Positions 29,258 through 35,969 of a DNA stretch of 46,071 nt are shown here, piece after piece; position 1 is the first letter of the stretch, and each line of letters opens with the position of its first letter. The notes below the pieces were generated by a model. The model saw only the letters and a program-made list of their open reading frames with translations. It had not been told where the DNA came from and did no database searches. The translations under genes and the position numbers were made by a program. Origin of the DNA: Neptunomonas japonica DSM 18939 (lineage in GTDB: Bacteria > Pseudomonadota > Gammaproteobacteria > Pseudomonadales > Balneatricaceae); assembly GCF_000422765.1 (NCBI RefSeq), contig NZ_AUGR01000028.1, positions 1 to 46,071 of the forward strand. Direction: 5' to 3'.

Positions 29258-29755
29258 TTATACAGAGATCTTTTCCAGTGTGCCCAGCGGGCATGCTACT
29301 AATAGATCATTAATTGATCTGTCACCGGGGAAAATAAGCTCTGGTGAGAGCTCTGCTAGAGGCCAGAGTACAAAGTTACGCTCTGTAGCGAAAGGGTGGG
29401 GGATAGTTAGTCGAGTGCTATTGAGCAATAAATCATCGTATAGGATGATATCTAGGTCTAATGTTCTGGGCCCCCAATGGATACGTCGCACGCGTTGGTG
29501 CTGTTGCTCAATGGCTTGTAATTGGTCGAGAAGAGCTTCGGGTTCTAGTCGGGTTTCCAAGAGCGCCACAGCATTAATATAGTCGGGCTGACCTGCGGGG
29601 CCTACTGGGTCAGAGCGATATAAGCTGGAACTAGCGAGTAAAGCGCAGCCTGGTATTTGGCTCAGCTCCACTAGCGCGGTTGAAACTTGTTGGCGAGGGT
29701 CTTCTAAATTACTGCCCAAGCCAACATAGCATCGACTAAGCGTTGCGAGGGTCAT
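29258..29755 (-). CDS. folK: 6-hydroxymethyl-7,8-dihydropterin pyrophosphokinase
   Basis: FolK pyrophosphorylates hydroxymethyl-dihydropterin, giving the substrate of FolP (found at 9583 in this window). It has 165 residues. The motifs YVGLGSNLEDP, the ATP-site segment RVRRIHWGPRTLDLDIILYD with the two metal-binding Asp, and IPHPFATERNFVLWPLAEL are intact. Its start overlaps the end of pcnB by 20 bases, so coupling is likely. Confidence 0.95.
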   Translation of the reverse strand: MTLATLSRCYVGLGSNLEDPRQQVSTALVELSQIPGCALLASSSLYRSDPVGPAGQPDYINAVALLETRLEPEALLDQLQAIEQQHQRVRRIHWGPRTLDLDIILYDDLLLNSTRLTIPHPFATERNFVLWPLAELSPELIFPGDRSINDLLVACPLGTLEKISV

Positions 29756-31163
29756 TCTTAGCTCTTCTTCGACGACGAGGCTTACGAGAAGGGCCTTCGG
29801 AAGCGAGTTCAGAGACCATTGATTCTCTTTCTTCTATGGGAGCCGCTTGATACTGCGTCCACCATTGGCCTAAATTATCCAAGGTTTCCCCGCTTTGCTC
29901 TCTGAGTAGCAGAAGATCATAGGCAGCTCTGAAGCGAGGATGCTCTAATAACTGTTCAGCACGGTTGCCAAAACGCTTAGGAAGGCGCAGTTGCAGCTCC
30001 CAAATCTCTCTGATAGGCGTAGAAAAGCGTCGCGGAATAGCGGTACGTTTTACCTGTGCTGCAATAATGTCATTTGCAGCAGCATGTAATGCAACCAGAG
30101 GTGGCATTTTACTATTTTGCTTCTGTATTTCTCGCATGCGTGTTTGCAGAGGGTGCCAAAGCATAGTGGCGAATAAAAATGCAGGTGTAACGCTTTTGCG
30201 CTGGTTAATACGTCTGTCGGTATTTTTAAGCCCTTGAAGTATCAGCGCTTCTACTAGTTTTTTATCGCCCTGTTTGCTGACGGCTTTAGCTGCTGAAGGC
30301 AGTAGTTGTTCAAACAACTGATATTCTTGAAGTAGGTGATATGCAGTAACCGCATGGCCTGATTGAAATAGCTTTAAGGTTTCATCAAACAAGCGAGCAG
30401 GTGCAATACCCTGTAATAAATGTGCTTGTTGTCTAATCGGGGCGGCAGTTGCTGGCTCAATCGAAAAATCAAGTTTTGCGGCAAAGCGTATGGCGCGTAG
30501 CATGCGAACAGGGTCTTCTTTGTAGCGGAAGTCAGGGTCGCCGATCATGCGAATAATTTTTTTCTGTATGTCTTCATAGCCATCAGTAAAGTCATAAATA
30601 CTATGATCTTTCATGCAGTAATAGAGCGCATTGACGGTAAAGTCTCGACGTAATGCGTCCTCTTCTATAGTGCCGTACACATTGTCACGCAAAATTAGTC
30701 CTGATTCGGACTGTTTGCCTTTAGCATCATCGTTATTGTCTTTTGAGTCATGGCTCGCTCTAAATGTGGCCAGTTCAATGATTTCTCTACCAAAACGCAC
30801 ATGTAGTAACTTAAAGCGACGCCCTATAAGGCGTGAGCGCTGAAATAGCTCATGAGCCTGCTCGGGGTGTGCGTTTGTGGCAATATCAAAATCTTTTGGG
30901 CGCTTCCTAAGCAAAGTATCTCGAATGCAGCCGCCAACAAGATAGCCTTCATAGCCAGCATCTAGTAGGCGATACACAACTTTAGCTGCGTTATCATCCA
31001 AGTGCTTGCGAGGAATCTGATGAGTTTTCTCGGAAATAATCAACGGAAAGTCATTTTGCTCCTCTGGGGCCTCATCTTGTGTTTGAGTGGGCTCTTTTGA
31101 TGGAGAAGAGTTCGACTTGTTACGGAACAGTCCGGTGACTTTCTGAATTAAACGGCTAGGCAT
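29736..31163 (-). CDS. pcnB: Poly(A) polymerase I
   Basis: PcnB adds 3' poly(A) tails to RNA, promoting decay. It has 475 residues. The nucleotidyltransferase motif is YLVGGCIRDTLLRKRPKDFDIATNA with the two catalytic Asp of DFD. The downstream RDFTVNALYY, EDPVRMLRAIRFAAKLDF and head domain fit the family. The tail is basic (RKPRRRRRAKN), as usual for RNA binding. It lies downstream of cbrB across a 455-base gap with a likely sRNA locus, the same order as in Pseudomonas. Confidence 0.95.
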   Translation of the reverse strand: MPSRLIQKVTGLFRNKSNSSPSKEPTQTQDEAPEEQNDFPLIISEKTHQIPRKHLDDNAAKVVYRLLDAGYEGYLVGGCIRDTLLRKRPKDFDIATNAHPEQAHELFQRSRLIGRRFKLLHVRFGREIIELATFRASHDSKDNNDDAKGKQSESGLILRDNVYGTIEEDALRRDFTVNALYYCMKDHSIYDFTDGYEDIQKKIIRMIGDPDFRYKEDPVRMLRAIRFAAKLDFSIEPATAAPIRQQAHLLQGIAPARLFDETLKLFQSGHAVTAYHLLQEYQLFEQLLPSAAKAVSKQGDKKLVEALILQGLKNTDRRINQRKSVTPAFLFATMLWHPLQTRMREIQKQNSKMPPLVALHAAANDIIAAQVKRTAIPRRFSTPIREIWELQLRLPKRFGNRAEQLLEHPRFRAAYDLLLLREQSGETLDNLGQWWTQYQAAPIEERESMVSELASEGPSRKPRRRRRAKNDPRNA

Positions 31164-31269
31164 GAGTTTTAAATTTTGCTCGTAAAATATTTAGTGGCAC
31201 ATCATAACATTGTTAAGGTGACACATTAAGCAATGAGGGAATAAACAGTAAAGAGGAGATGGACAGCTG

Positions 31270-31463
31270 ACCGCAAGCTTAAGAGTAAAATCTCGGCTTG
31301 TTGTTATTATTAGAGCACTGTAGATGCATTACTGCACAACCCAGCGATCAGCTTTTAAACCTCATTTTTATTATTATTCGAGGTGGATTACTTATTTACA
31401 CTCAGCCTATTTTTATTTTTATTGATGGTCGGCGTATCAAAGTTTATTTTTTTTGTTTGTACA
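31270..31463 (-). ncRNA. Candidate CrcZ-like Hfq-titrating small RNA
   Basis: Downstream of a sigma-54 promoter on the minus strand lie four A-rich modules: 31460-31442 (ACAAACAAAAAAAATAAAC), 31424-31406 (CAATAAAAATAAAAATAGG), 31380-31360 (GAATAATAATAAAAATG) and 31313-31295 (CTAATAATAACAACAAG). They resemble the AAnAAnAA motifs bound by the Hfq distal face with Crc. The third sits in the loop of an ACCTC/GAGGT hairpin. In Pseudomonas the sRNA CrcZ lies in this same place, between cbrB and pcnB, and is switched on by CbrB. Motifs and position are seen; function is inferred. The 5' end is predicted from the promoter. No intrinsic terminator is visible before pcnB, so the 3' end is open. Confidence 0.6.
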
Positions 31464-31474
31464 CCCAATATAAT

Positions 31475-31489
31475 GCATTCGGTGTGCCA
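31475..31489 (-). promoter_or_regulatory. Sigma-54 (-24/-12) promoter between cbrB and pcnB
   Basis: The minus strand reads TGGCAC-ACCGA-ATGC, with the invariant GG and GC spaced by exactly ten bases and five of the remaining consensus bases kept (consensus TGGCAC-N5-TTGC). It faces the A-rich stretch and pcnB. The predicted start is near 31463. Confidence 0.75.
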
Positions 31490-31553
31490 CTTTTTCTAAG
31501 ATATTGTTTTTTATAAAGAACTTGTTTTTTGTGAAATATGTGCTATCGGATTG

Positions 31554-31622
31554 GTTACAGGAGGGAACACTTTTTTGTTTCTTTAGGTAACACTATGTGT
31601 GGGTGTTACCTCTAAGTGTTAC
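31554..31622. promoter_or_regulatory. Cluster of GTAAC/GTTAC half-sites, possible CbrB activator sites
   Basis: GTTAC occurs at 31554, 31605 and 31618 and GTAAC at 31587. GGTAACAC (31586-31593) and GTGTTACC (31603-31610) form a perfect 8-base inverted repeat with a 9-base spacer. The cluster ends at the cbrB stop and lies about 65-145 bases upstream of the sigma-54 promoter, a normal enhancer distance. From memory, GTTAC/GTAAC palindromes are the type reported for CbrB in Pseudomonas. Confidence 0.55.
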
Positions 31623-33010
31623 CCTTTGGGGCGCTTTGGAATTCCTAATTTTTGGCGGCGTTCCCATAAGCATTTTCGGCTGACGCCCAACTTTTTAGCC
31701 AAGTCAGTTTCGTTCATCTCGTTTTGATGCTCAATCACAAAGCGCTGGAAGTAATCATCCATTGATAGCCCCGCAGGAGAGTTCTTTTTTGAAAGGTGGC
31801 TGGTGGTTGTTTCACGCGTTGTTGATTGCTCTATATAGTCCGACTCTAATTGCTGAAGGCTAGGGCGTGTTTCTATATCAAGTCCAAGCAGGTCGGGTGT
31901 AATAAAGTGATTATCAGCAAGAATAACGGCGCGCTCAATGGCGTTTTCTAATTCACGTACATTACCTGGCCAACTATATTGCAGCATAACTTGGCGGGAA
32001 CTATCGCTAAGAACGGCTTCTGGGCAGTTCATTCGTGAGCAAGCACTAATCAAAAAGCGCTCTGCCAGCGTGATAATATCCTGGCCACGTTCCCGTAAAG
32101 GGGGCATGTTCAGTTCCATGACATATAAACGATAGTATAAATCTTCACGGAACTGTGCGGCGCGCGCCAATTCTTTGAGGTTGCGGTGAGTGGCGGCAAT
32201 TAAGCGTACATTGACCTTTATCGACTGTATTGAGCCGACTTTACGAATTTCACCTTCTTGTAAAAAGCGTAATAAGCGCGCTTGTGCTTCAAGTGGCAGC
32301 TCTCCGATCTCATCTAAAAATAATGTACCGTTATCAGCTGCTTCGATTAATCCGCAGCGGCTGTTGTCCGCGCCAGTAAAAGACCCTTTTTCATGACCAA
32401 AGAGTTCTGATTCAATGAGGGATTCTGGAATAGCTGCGCAGTTAACGGAAATCATTGGTGCTTTCGCGCGTGAGCTTTGCTCGTGTATGGCACGCGCAAC
32501 TAATTCTTTACCGGTACCTGATTCGCCTAGTACTAGGACCGTGGCATCGGTGCGAGCTACCTTTGAGATGCGAGAAAAGAGGTTAAGCATTGCATCACAC
32601 TTGCCAGTGATTTCGGTATGTTGCGCCTCAGGTTCAATGCTGACACTGTGTTGTTCTATCGGTTGCTGGTTCAAAATAGTAGCAATGGTTGATAGCATTT
32701 CTTCATGGTTAAAAGGTTTGGCTATATAGTCAACGGCACCCATTTTCATGGCGTCAACGGCAGACTTCATGCTGGCGTAACTCGTCATTATCAGTACAGG
32801 TACGCTACGAGCTAGTTGAATGAGATCTGTACCTGGCGCGCCAGGCAGCCGTAGGTCGCTGATAATCAGATCAAAACTATCTAAATTAAATTGTGAGGCG
32901 GCTTCGTCAACAGAAGCTGCATCATCGATGTTGTAGTTGTTTTTTTCTAATAAACGGCGCAGCGCTGCACGGATGATGGACTCATCTTCTACGATCAGAA
33001 TTCGGCTCAT
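31619..33010 (-). CDS. cbrB: Sigma-54-dependent response regulator CbrB
   Basis: This NtrC-family activator is paired with CbrA. It has 463 residues. The receiver domain has the phosphoacceptor Asp52 in ISDLRLPG, with Thr/Ser near 76-80 and Lys98. The AAA+ domain has Walker A GESGTGKE (162-169), Walker B LFLDEIGEL, and the sigma-54 contact loop GSFTGA (209-214) in place of the commoner GAFTGA. A Fis-type helix-turn-helix (DLAKKLGVSRKCLWERRQKL) ends the protein. It starts 10 bases after cbrA. The CbrB name rests on the kinase type and the pcnB neighbourhood. In Pseudomonas CbrAB sets carbon/nitrogen balance through CrcZ. Confidence 0.92.
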   Translation of the reverse strand: MSRILIVEDESIIRAALRRLLEKNNYNIDDAASVDEAASQFNLDSFDLIISDLRLPGAPGTDLIQLARSVPVLIMTSYASMKSAVDAMKMGAVDYIAKPFNHEEMLSTIATILNQQPIEQHSVSIEPEAQHTEITGKCDAMLNLFSRISKVARTDATVLVLGESGTGKELVARAIHEQSSRAKAPMISVNCAAIPESLIESELFGHEKGSFTGADNSRCGLIEAADNGTLFLDEIGELPLEAQARLLRFLQEGEIRKVGSIQSIKVNVRLIAATHRNLKELARAAQFREDLYYRLYVMELNMPPLRERGQDIITLAERFLISACSRMNCPEAVLSDSSRQVMLQYSWPGNVRELENAIERAVILADNHFITPDLLGLDIETRPSLQQLESDYIEQSTTRETTTSHLSKKNSPAGLSMDDYFQRFVIEHQNEMNETDLAKKLGVSRKCLWERRQKLGIPKRPKG

Positions 33011-33020
33011 TGTTCTCTAC

Positions 33021-35969
33021 CTAATCTCCAGTACTAGACCTTTCAGAAAGTTTGTCTTTCAGTTCAGGCCTGGAGCCCGGTAAGGTGATAATCACCTGAG
33101 TGCCTTTCTTCTGCTTGTTATTGGCGGGGCTAATTATTTTAATACTACCATAATGCTCAGTTAGAATGTTGTAAACCAATGGCAAGCCCAGTCCGGTGCC
33201 CTTGCCCGGCTCTTTTGTCGTGAAAAAAGGCTCGAAAAGTTTATCTTGGATGGACGGGTCAATGCCGCTGCCTTCATCTGTGATAGTTAGGAAAATTCTC
33301 TGTTCTTCTTGGGACGCAGTAATTGTGATCTCGCTCTCTTCAGGTGATGCATCACAGGCATTGTTTAGGATATTAACCAACACTTGCAATAATAGTTGAG
33401 GGTCTCCGTCGACCATCAGACCGTTATCGAGTTTACAAATAAACTGTTGTTGCCTGGCATGCATATCCAGAGAGACTAGATGAATAGCTTCTTCTACACA
33501 TTGGGTTAAATTAATCGTTTCAAATTGAATGTCGCTAATCGTTTGGCCGGTGTGAGCAAAGCGAACCAGTGACTGTACAATTCGATTGATGCGTCGGGTT
33601 TGCTCCATTATTTGATCACCCGCTTGCAAAACCTCGGGTTGGTCGGTTTCCAGAGAAAGGTTTTGAGCTAAACAGGCTATGCCAGTGATCGGATTGCCTA
33701 TTTCGTGAGCTACGCCCGCAGCAAAGCGCCCTATAGAGGCAAGCCGCTCGCTATGCATTAAGTTATCTGTGAGCTGATGATGTTCTGTTTCATCCTCAAC
33801 CAGAATGACGATAGAGCTATCAGCATTTTCAGAAAGTAGGTTTTTATGCAGTGTTAGCCAATAAGTATCTGTCCCTATCATCACTTGGGTGTCGGTTAAA
33901 TGATTATCACTTTGCTGTACAAATTCAGGGAGCAGTGTGCACCATGGCTCTGGCAGCTCTGAGAGAGAGAGGTCGGTAACATCCGCTGCACTGAGTTGGG
34001 TTAAGTGAGCAATTTCATTATTCCAGAAAAGAATATGTTGTGTCGGAGTGATAGTGCAGGCGCCAATGGGTAGTTTTTCTAACGTTCTTTTATGATACCG
34101 ACGTAGTTCGTCCAGTTCTGCTGCAAGACCACTTAATTTAGCTTGGTATGTCTCTAAGTGGGTTTCAAGAAGATAGATGTCGCGTGTTTGAAATGGTTTT
34201 CCACCGGGTTGTTTAGCAAGGGGCTCTAGTAGTGTGGCTGCTTCGATGGGGCCAACGAGTGCTGATAAGTTTTGCTCAAGCGCATTTCGTAAGCGAAGTA
34301 AATCAAGTGGCCCTATTTGGTCTTTGTCTAATTCCAACTGGTTAGTGGCATGGAGTAGTTCTCTACGTGCTGCTGTTTCACCTAACTTGGGAGTAAGTAA
34401 GCGAATAATGTCGGTTGTTTCAAAAGAGAGTCGTTGAATATCAGAAGGTGAATTCATGGTGTTTAAAAGACACGCTTCTCCGGCTCTTGTCTCTTCTGGG
34501 TAAGTCGGGGTTAGGCGTGAAACAATAATGAATGCACTGATGTTGAGTAAGAGAGAGATAATGGCAGATGATTGCCAGTTCAAGTTTTCAATATTGGTGT
34601 CTGTTAATAGTGCGCCTTGTTGCAAAAGGACTGGATAGAACGTGGTAATGATCCAACTGGACATACCCAATATTAAGCCAACGATAAAGCCGATGCGGTT
34701 AGCCCCGAGCCAAAACAACGTAGCAATAATGCCAGGTAAAAACTGCAGGAATGCCACAAAAGCACTTAAACCGAGCAGATGGATTTGTTGGCTTGCCCCA
34801 AATACGGTGTAAAAAAGATAGCTACATAACACCACGAGTGAAATTAGAATGCGTCTAAGCCACAGTAACCAAGTATAAAATTTAACATTTTCGGGTGTTT
34901 TAATTAACGGCAAAATGAGATGGTTTTGTAGCATCGACGCCAATGAAATCGAGGCGACGATAATAATCCCACTGGCCGCTGTAAGGCCGCCAATGAAAAC
35001 AATAATGATCAACCATTCGGAGTGCAGAATTTGGCTTAAATACAGGAGTAAGAAGGATGATTCTTGATTAATTTCTAGTTTATAACCCGCCAGTACGATA
35101 ATCGGTACGCAGCCAGCCAAGAGTAACAAGTAAAGAGGCATTCCCCACGATGCTTTATAGAGGCTATCGGTTGAGCGGTTTTCTGTAAAAGCTAAATGGA
35201 ACATGTGTGGCATAACTAGCGTGGCAGTAAAGAATGCAAGAAGCAGGGTATGCCAACTGTCGTCGTTATCGCTTGCGGTGAGTTGCGAAAGGATCTGTGG
35301 ATTTTGCTCCAGCCAAGATAGAGCATCTTTTGGGCCGCCCAGTACAGCAAAAAGAACATAAGCGGCGATGCTTAATAGTACTAATAGCTTGATAATGGAA
35401 CTGATCGCCATCGCCATAACGAGCCCTCGGTTACGAGCACGCATAGAGGGATGGCGTGTACCGAACAAAATAGCAAACAGGGCGATAAGAATACAAAATG
35501 CGGCAGCTATCTGGGGTGAGGCAAAATCACCATTAAGAATATGTAGCGTATCAGTGACCGCCTGAATCTGAATCGATAGTAATGGTAACGTGGCTAATAG
35601 TAGTAATAGTGTTGTGATAGTACCGACAAGTCCGCTACGAAACCTAAACGCAAAAAGATCAGCAAGAGAACTCAGTTTGTAGCGATTAGTGATGTTAAAA
35701 ATGGGTATGAGCAGTGAAGGCGCCATGATAAAGGCGGCTGTTGCTCCAAGGTAAGAAGATAAAAACAGCAGCCCTGAGTGCTCTAACATCCCAAAAGCAC
35801 CGTAAAAGGTCCAAACGCTGGCGTAAGTTCCTAAGGAGAGCATGTGAGTTATGGGGTGTTGTGAAATACGCCGTGGAATGACTTCTCGCTCAGTGGCATA
35901 GGCGATGCCGAATAGAAACAGCAGGTAGGCGGTAACAATTAGGAAAAGTTCGGTAACCGAAAAATTCAT
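33021..35969 (-). CDS. cbrA: Sensor histidine kinase CbrA with SLC5 transporter-like domain
   Basis: The 982 residues match the length and layout of Pseudomonas CbrA. About 13 membrane helices of the sodium/solute symporter (SLC5) type fill residues 1 to roughly 490. A linker and PAS-like domain follow (about 630-735). Then come HisKA with His755 in GVAHEIGNP and HATPase_c with N box VNILNNACDAS, G1 DEGSG, F box FEPFFTTK and G2 GKGTGLGLPL. It probably phosphorylates CbrB, encoded 10 bases downstream. Whether the transporter domain carries a solute (histidine in Pseudomonas) cannot be read from the sequence. The 330 bases upstream up to dksA hold a 16-bp inverted repeat and otherwise nothing recognised. 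Confidence 0.94.
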   Translation of the reverse strand: MNFSVTELFLIVTAYLLFLFGIAYATEREVIPRRISQHPITHMLSLGTYASVWTFYGAFGMLEHSGLLFLSSYLGATAAFIMAPSLLIPIFNITNRYKLSSLADLFAFRFRSGLVGTITTLLLLLATLPLLSIQIQAVTDTLHILNGDFASPQIAAAFCILIALFAILFGTRHPSMRARNRGLVMAMAISSIIKLLVLLSIAAYVLFAVLGGPKDALSWLEQNPQILSQLTASDNDDSWHTLLLAFFTATLVMPHMFHLAFTENRSTDSLYKASWGMPLYLLLLAGCVPIIVLAGYKLEINQESSFLLLYLSQILHSEWLIIIVFIGGLTAASGIIIVASISLASMLQNHLILPLIKTPENVKFYTWLLWLRRILISLVVLCSYLFYTVFGASQQIHLLGLSAFVAFLQFLPGIIATLFWLGANRIGFIVGLILGMSSWIITTFYPVLLQQGALLTDTNIENLNWQSSAIISLLLNISAFIIVSRLTPTYPEETRAGEACLLNTMNSPSDIQRLSFETTDIIRLLTPKLGETAARRELLHATNQLELDKDQIGPLDLLRLRNALEQNLSALVGPIEAATLLEPLAKQPGGKPFQTRDIYLLETHLETYQAKLSGLAAELDELRRYHKRTLEKLPIGACTITPTQHILFWNNEIAHLTQLSAADVTDLSLSELPEPWCTLLPEFVQQSDNHLTDTQVMIGTDTYWLTLHKNLLSENADSSIVILVEDETEHHQLTDNLMHSERLASIGRFAAGVAHEIGNPITGIACLAQNLSLETDQPEVLQAGDQIMEQTRRINRIVQSLVRFAHTGQTISDIQFETINLTQCVEEAIHLVSLDMHARQQQFICKLDNGLMVDGDPQLLLQVLVNILNNACDASPEESEITITASQEEQRIFLTITDEGSGIDPSIQDKLFEPFFTTKEPGKGTGLGLPLVYNILTEHYGSIKIISPANNKQKKGTQVIITLPGSRPELKDKLSERSSTGD

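Follow-up and report, generated by a model that had tools for sequence, protein, structure and literature searches.

What occupies the 455 bases (31164-31618 by the coordinates of the open reading frames) that separate cbrB from pcnB in Neptunomonas japonica? An earlier note, made from the letters alone, had read them as the locus of a CrcZ-like small RNA. The excerpted part of a 2022 review describes the cbrA-cbrB-crcZ organisation in Pseudomonas and Azotobacter only, and terms the CbrAB system unique to the Pseudomonadaceae (PMC8871633). A counterpart of CrcZ outside this family is reported in none of the matches listed from the open-licence PMC literature. One of these papers records cbrA and cbrB transcripts from mesopelagic sea water, and its excerpt does not mention the RNA alongside (PMC5073097); another, as excerpted, names CbrAB of Acinetobacter as an open question only (PMC8312277).

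Elements of the cbrB-pcnB gap

In the window, i.e. the whole stretch of 46,071 nucleotides that was analysed, the order is dksA-cbrA-cbrB-RNA-pcnB. The candidate RNA gene thus lies between cbrB and pcnB on the strand shared with both, which is the place of CrcZ (Table 1).

Table 1. Positions of the genes and predicted elements at the locus
Feature	Position	Strand	Basis and remarks
cbrA	33021..35969	-	ORF; 982-aa sensor kinase; C-terminal HisKA and HATPase, Pfam E<=1e-5
cbrB	31619..33010	-	ORF and Pfam; 463-aa NtrC-type response regulator with sigma-54 interaction domain
Four GTAAC/GTTAC half-sites (putative CbrB sites)	31553..31623	-	sequence
Sigma-54 promoter match TGGCAC-N6-TGCA	31474..31489	-	sequence; same element in relatives
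CrcZ-like small RNA (predicted)	31266..31464	-	match to model R1, 178.4 bits (the window itself is among the 21 rows used to build R1); start near 31463
A module 1, five A-R-N triplets	31443..31457	-	5' and unpaired in the predicted fold
A module 2, six A-R-N triplets	31406..31423	-	in predicted hairpin 31443-31390
A module 3, five A-R-N triplets	31364..31378	-	in predicted hairpin 31384-31359 (ACCUC/GAGGU)
A module 4, five A-R-N triplets	31297..31311	-	inside the closing helix
Closing helix GCUGAUCGC...GCGGUCAGC and enclosed part	31266..31352	-	pairing in 21 aligned RNAs
pcnB, poly(A) polymerase	29736..31163	-	NCBIfam TIGR01942, 527 bits

The kinase gene is taken by us to be cbrA, a name that rests on the adjoining cbrB and on recall. 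Pfam matched its kinase domains only, the long N-terminal part giving no match at the threshold of Table 1; in Pseudomonas CbrA an SLC5 transporter domain is found in the N-terminal part, according to an excerpt of PMC8871633.

The elements that the earlier note had claimed are present on the minus strand and in the order given there, i.e. half-sites, sigma-54 promoter and four A-rich modules. The half-sites (GGTAAC, GGTAAC, GTTACC and GTAACC) include the inverted repeat noticed before, as GGTAACAC-N9-GTGTTACC, and their number upstream of the promoter, four, compares with a mean of 0.61 in shuffled sequences, among which at least four were reached in 2 of 2000. The published half-sites of CbrB are TGTTAC/GTAACA and its consensus is TGTTAC-N12-14-GTAACA-N15-19-GTAACA (PMC8871633, excerpt); the F-R-R triad (F1-R1-R2) with a spacing of 18-26 bases is absent from the window, although half-sites are present. 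The promoter was found where it had been placed, at 31489-31475 on the minus strand, and reads TGGCACACCGAATGC / TGGCACACCGAATGCA; by its sequence it is of the sigma-54 type that characterizes CrcZ, and rpoN is in the genome. The sigma-54 pattern was rejected as evidence by itself, as it gives 32 matches genome-wide against 23 for the reversed pattern and is barely enriched. Among the 30 of these 32 matches for which sequence was retrieved, the locus in the window is the only one followed by four A-motif clusters.

The A-rich modules were confirmed as runs of 5, 6, 5 and 5 A-R-N triplets, several runs of at least four being characteristic of CrcZ. One point of the note had to be corrected, in that not one module but two, modules 2 and 3, are located in hairpin loops in the predicted fold of the window's RNA. 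Across the 46-kb window the density of A-motif clusters peaks in the cbrB-pcnB gap, with five in 170 nt as opposed to at most three elsewhere. Note that the clusters of five begin upstream of the promoter, where three more AAnAAnAA motifs are found, and that the transcribed part by itself has four in 170 nt. When the gap was shuffled (n=1000), a cluster of five was obtained in no case and a cluster of four in 12. These single-sequence statistics are good, not overwhelming; it is conservation that settles the observation.

Conservation and structure in related genomes

Of 57 related genomes, the window's own counted, 50 have a homolog of cbrB at E<=1e-100, and pcnB is visible in 43 of the 50 stretches downstream of cbrB. 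We scored an array where three or more A motifs occur within 200 nt of a promoter and two or more half-sites in the 200 nt upstream of it. Such an array is present in 40 of the 50 stretches downstream of cbrB (28 of 30 in the window's family, 12 of 20 outside it), while the opposite strand gives 0 of 50 and shuffling 0 of 1000. Conservation of the promoter and of the A modules in relatives had been set beforehand as the refuting test, and the counts on the two strands show that both are conserved.

A model of the RNA, R1, was constructed from 21 RNAs of 20 of the 30 family genomes with cbrB (alignment A4); three stretches of the first RNAalifold set (L105, L109 and L111) were left out of the R1 alignments, and four rows (two of L093, L110, L112) were dropped because they were poorly aligned. 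The array fails in ten stretches, eight of them outside the family; among these eight, L115 is cut by a contig end, and the genomes G041 and G042 carry R1 matches. The two family genomes that miss the array, G015 and G029, have four and five R1 matches elsewhere (E<=0.05), three in each with E<1e-14; those of G029 are on contigs C21, C26 and C34, one of them at a contig end. Six of these nine matches were retrieved: none adjoins pcnB, a GG-N10-GC promoter match goes with five of them, and at least two half-sites with every one.

R1 was searched with filters that lose weak matches. Of 390 genomes of the order, 34 carry a match at E<=1e-3, divided equally between the window's family (17) and the rest of the order (17); among 369 genomes drawn from the whole class, the window's own was the sole match. 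Outside the family there are 20 R1 matches, and 10 of the 13 that were retrieved adjoin cbrB and/or pcnB. CbrB with a CrcZ-like RNA occurs across many families of one order, the RNA being unrecognised by Rfam. Three R1 matches (L185, L188 and L189, in genomes G083, G042 and G041, respectively) carry TGGCAC-type letters and half-sites away from cbrB and pcnB, and are possibly extra copies of the RNA in other families. A separate observation concerns Gilvimarinus, where 14 (L003) and 15 (L005) non-overlapping AAnAAnAA motifs follow the promoter in the cbrB-pcnB gap, as compared with about 3 in shuffles.

The conserved RNA has a length of about 200 nt in the window's family. All nine pairs of the closing helix are kept in all 21 family RNAs, with double changes at six of the nine. 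Over 28 named pairs, 84.7% of the cells are paired versus 77.4% in shuffles, and double-change cells number 54 versus 20.8; since the structure was picked by eye on the same 21 rows on which it was scored, this test favours the structure. Further pair types in the 21 RNAs are not above shuffles (148 of 500 reach the number). The stem of module 3 is paired in 95% of cells, and that of module 4 shows compensatory changes in other genera and is mostly broken in the window's genus. The positions of the A modules are nearly fixed within the family. The window's RNA folded alone gives a modest z of -1.45, 17 of 200 shuffles being as good. A first attempt with RNAalifold on a MAFFT alignment and with single-sequence folding gave weak structure or two helices only, and was replaced.

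A proposed decoy for Hfq and its alternatives

The expected partners of a CrcZ are encoded: a search for crc and hfq, which the earlier note had called for, found both in the window's genome. The Crc ortholog is encoded between pyrE and rph, and its best solved matches are Crc proteins, with exonucleases behind; the structure at the top is presumably that of P. aeruginosa Crc. Crc was counted in 54 of the 57 genomes, a tally that includes two matches at 29-31% identity and that may contain exonuclease-type homologs among the distant genomes. Residue 25 of the Hfq encoded in the window's genome is F; in P. aeruginosa Hfq it is Y25, and its change to D abolished CrcZ binding (PMC4063720, excerpt). 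F in place of Y is a mild change, yet one that may count against the predicted binding.

We consider it very likely that the gap holds a gene for a decoy RNA of about 200 nt, driven by CbrB and sigma-54, that acts on Hfq (with Crc). When preferred carbon is short, CbrA would phosphorylate CbrB, which in this form would bind the half-sites and fire the sigma-54 promoter. The RNA would offer its four runs of 5-6 A-R-N triplets, the first at the open 5' end, the rest carried by hairpins or enclosed by the closing helix, and each run might fill the A-rich-binding distal face of one Hfq hexamer. Catabolic mRNAs would thereby lose Hfq and Crc from their start regions and be released for translation, and less-preferred foods could be used. 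The activation by CbrB, the binding of Hfq and the relief of repression are carried over from work on Pseudomonas. The CrcZ-like reading of the note is supported in silico by conservation, by covariation and by hfq, crc and rpoN in the genome. Should the decoy act in this manner, carbon catabolite control through titration of Hfq has an earlier origin and a broader distribution than has been assumed.

Other explanations have to be weighed against this one. On one reading the intergenic sequence is A-rich by chance and the promoter is spurious; this would agree with the weak enrichment of the promoter pattern, with the A motifs upstream of the promoter and with the clusters of four in gap shuffles, but conservation, spacing and covariation speak so strongly against it that we find it hardly credible. 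A somewhat different possibility is that the RNA is driven by CbrB and sigma-54 and acts mainly by base-pairing with mRNAs, Hfq being its helper and not the target of a decoy. Some genera do conserve stretches outside the A modules; however, the invariant columns of the alignment are mostly those of the A modules, and elsewhere pairing is retained more than sequence, which makes this possibility unlikely, even though it is the least improbable of the alternatives.

It might also be asked whether the stretch belongs to pcnB as its 5' leader or attenuator and is not a free RNA. It closely precedes pcnB, with which it shares the strand, and the search for an intrinsic terminator gave none for the window's RNA, whose predicted 3' end is at or beyond the closing helix. 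On the other hand, pcnB has its own TATGAT element near its start, and the gap of G015 and G029 is without the RNA, yet R1 matches occur elsewhere in these genomes, away from pcnB in each retrieved case. A leader is thus quite improbable, slightly more so than base-pairing, and we retain the decoy as the preferred reading.

Candidate targets of Hfq and Crc were looked for in 324 genes from 20 stretches of 20 kb of the window's genome, with 274 genes of a relative without crc (G016) as comparison. Five A-R-N triplets are found at the starts of 9 of the 324 genes, as opposed to 1 and 2 in control windows, and AAY repeats at 11, as opposed to 3 and 2; in G016 the respective values are 3 of 274 versus 0 and 1, and 4 versus 7 and 2. 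The enrichment at starts is small and not clearly above that of the relative. Ten of the 17 hits were inspected, and they include three genes of a phenol-hydroxylase/catechol-dioxygenase operon (a pattern spotted post hoc), fdhA, the beta subunit of a quinohemoprotein amine dehydrogenase and a polyamine-type ABC transporter, as well as the housekeeping genes of glycyl-tRNA synthetase and the GidB methyltransferase. For the phenol operon, two matches to the sigma-54 promoter were found, together with a divergent activator of the XylR/DmpR type. The phenol-hydroxylase and catechol meta-cleavage cluster extends over L239:4252-17891 (G000:C6:64252-77891), and several of its start codons are preceded by A-repeats. 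A further case, from beyond the sample, is a StyD-like aldehyde dehydrogenase (709 bits, under the family cut-off of 850), whose gene adjoins a quinohemoprotein amine dehydrogenase gene and has a sigma-54 match and AACAACAATAAAAA just 5' of its start. Judged from these motifs, the phenol operon, fdhA and the StyD-like aldehyde dehydrogenase are candidate targets.

Relatives without cbrB and comparison with known RNAs

Six genomes of the family gave no cbrB match at E<=1e-100 (G010, G025, G008, G023, G035 and G016). In G010 and G025 the order is dksA-gluQ-RNA-pcnB, and the RNA is kept with four A motifs (R1 E-values of 9.7e-15 and 9.6e-10, respectively) in the absence of cbrB. Neither half-sites nor a sigma-54 match precede the RNA in these two genomes; instead, TTGAAY-N17-TATAKT stands directly 5' of it in both. 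Elements of this kind are expected by chance 0.5-1 times per stretch of such size, so the sigma-70-like promoter that we infer here relies on its place and on its conservation in two genomes. In genus g4, then, the RNA with four A motifs stays before pcnB behind TTGAAY-N17-TATAKT while cbrB is gone. G008, G023 and G035 have pcnB after gluQ, and an A-rich RNA is missing from the space between the two. Elsewhere in these genomes an A-rich RNA-like element was noticed, in G023 (L204:1500-1640, downstream of hslU), in G008 (L272) and in G035 (L273); a terminator-like hairpin is present in all three, the latter two being 90% and 86% identical to G023, and three A motifs are found in G023 and G008. 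This other A-rich RNA with a terminator may have replaced the decoy RNA in genus g2. In G016 gluQ is directly followed by pcnB, and neither a Crc match (E<=1e-20) nor such an RNA was found. Over the six genomes, crc and an A-rich RNA candidate are therefore either both found or both not found.

One might speculate that in this system the decoy RNA is more durable than the CbrAB sensor. It would be an order-wide RNA family that multiplies to up to five copies and, provided that Crc is retained, outlives cbrAB by way of a housekeeping-type promoter; we give this view an even chance. If it is true, small genomes without cbrB would titrate Hfq and Crc constitutively or under some new kind of tuning. 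The relatives that have the RNA without cbrB are natural experiments on the decoy's need for its sensor.

It is instructive to compare the RNA with CrcZ of Pseudomonas. The Rfam model of CrcZ, RF01675, has no match in the window at the gathering score, none in L082 (the same RNA) at E<=0.1, and none at E<=0.1 in L091, L104, L003 (Gilvimarinus) and L007 (a Cellvibrionaceae MAG), which fits the earlier description of a sequence-divergent counterpart. The model matches L002 (Pseudomonas fildesensis, 349.6 bits), L006 (Serpens gallinarum, 272.1 bits) and also L107 (306.8 bits), from a genome of the window's order (G055) in which R1, searched with filters that lose weak matches, has no match. It is from G055 that the order is presumed to be the Pseudomonadales of GTDB. 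The loci are thus linked by their place and promoter, the RNA having diverged beyond the reach of either model.

The likenesses are the location between cbrB and pcnB, the sigma-54 promoter, half-sites of the TGTTAC/GTAACA type, crc and hfq in the genome, and several A-R-N runs, the first of which is a few bases past the predicted start. P. aeruginosa CrcZ has six runs of A-R-N triplets and titrates Hfq through such repeats on the distal face of the protein (PMC4063720, excerpt). In contrast to CrcZ, the window's RNA has about 200 conserved nt, as opposed to the 398 positions of RF01675, and its four modules are carried by covarying hairpins and a closing helix. Since it is not matched by the Rfam model and differs in size and architecture, we regard it as a new RNA variant and not as CrcZ proper.

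The extra copies of the decoy RNA in a genome, several with their own promoter and half-sites, recall CrcY and CrcX of Pseudomonas (PMC8871633, excerpt). Unlike these, the copies also occur in tandem within the cbrB-pcnB gap, two in G009, G013 and G028 and three in G024, which has five R1 matches in all (G024:C18 and G024:C6), two of them elsewhere; the window's genome has one copy. RNAs of the CsrB/RsmZ type sequester a protein, and the sites of CsrA are GGA. Repeated sites that titrate an RNA-binding regulator are common to them and to the present RNA, an analogy that is also drawn in the excerpt of PMC4063720, whereas the present one offers A-R-N runs, which suit Hfq, in place of GGA. By its place, the RNA of Neptunomonas japonica is best read as a counterpart of CrcZ that differs from it in size and architecture.
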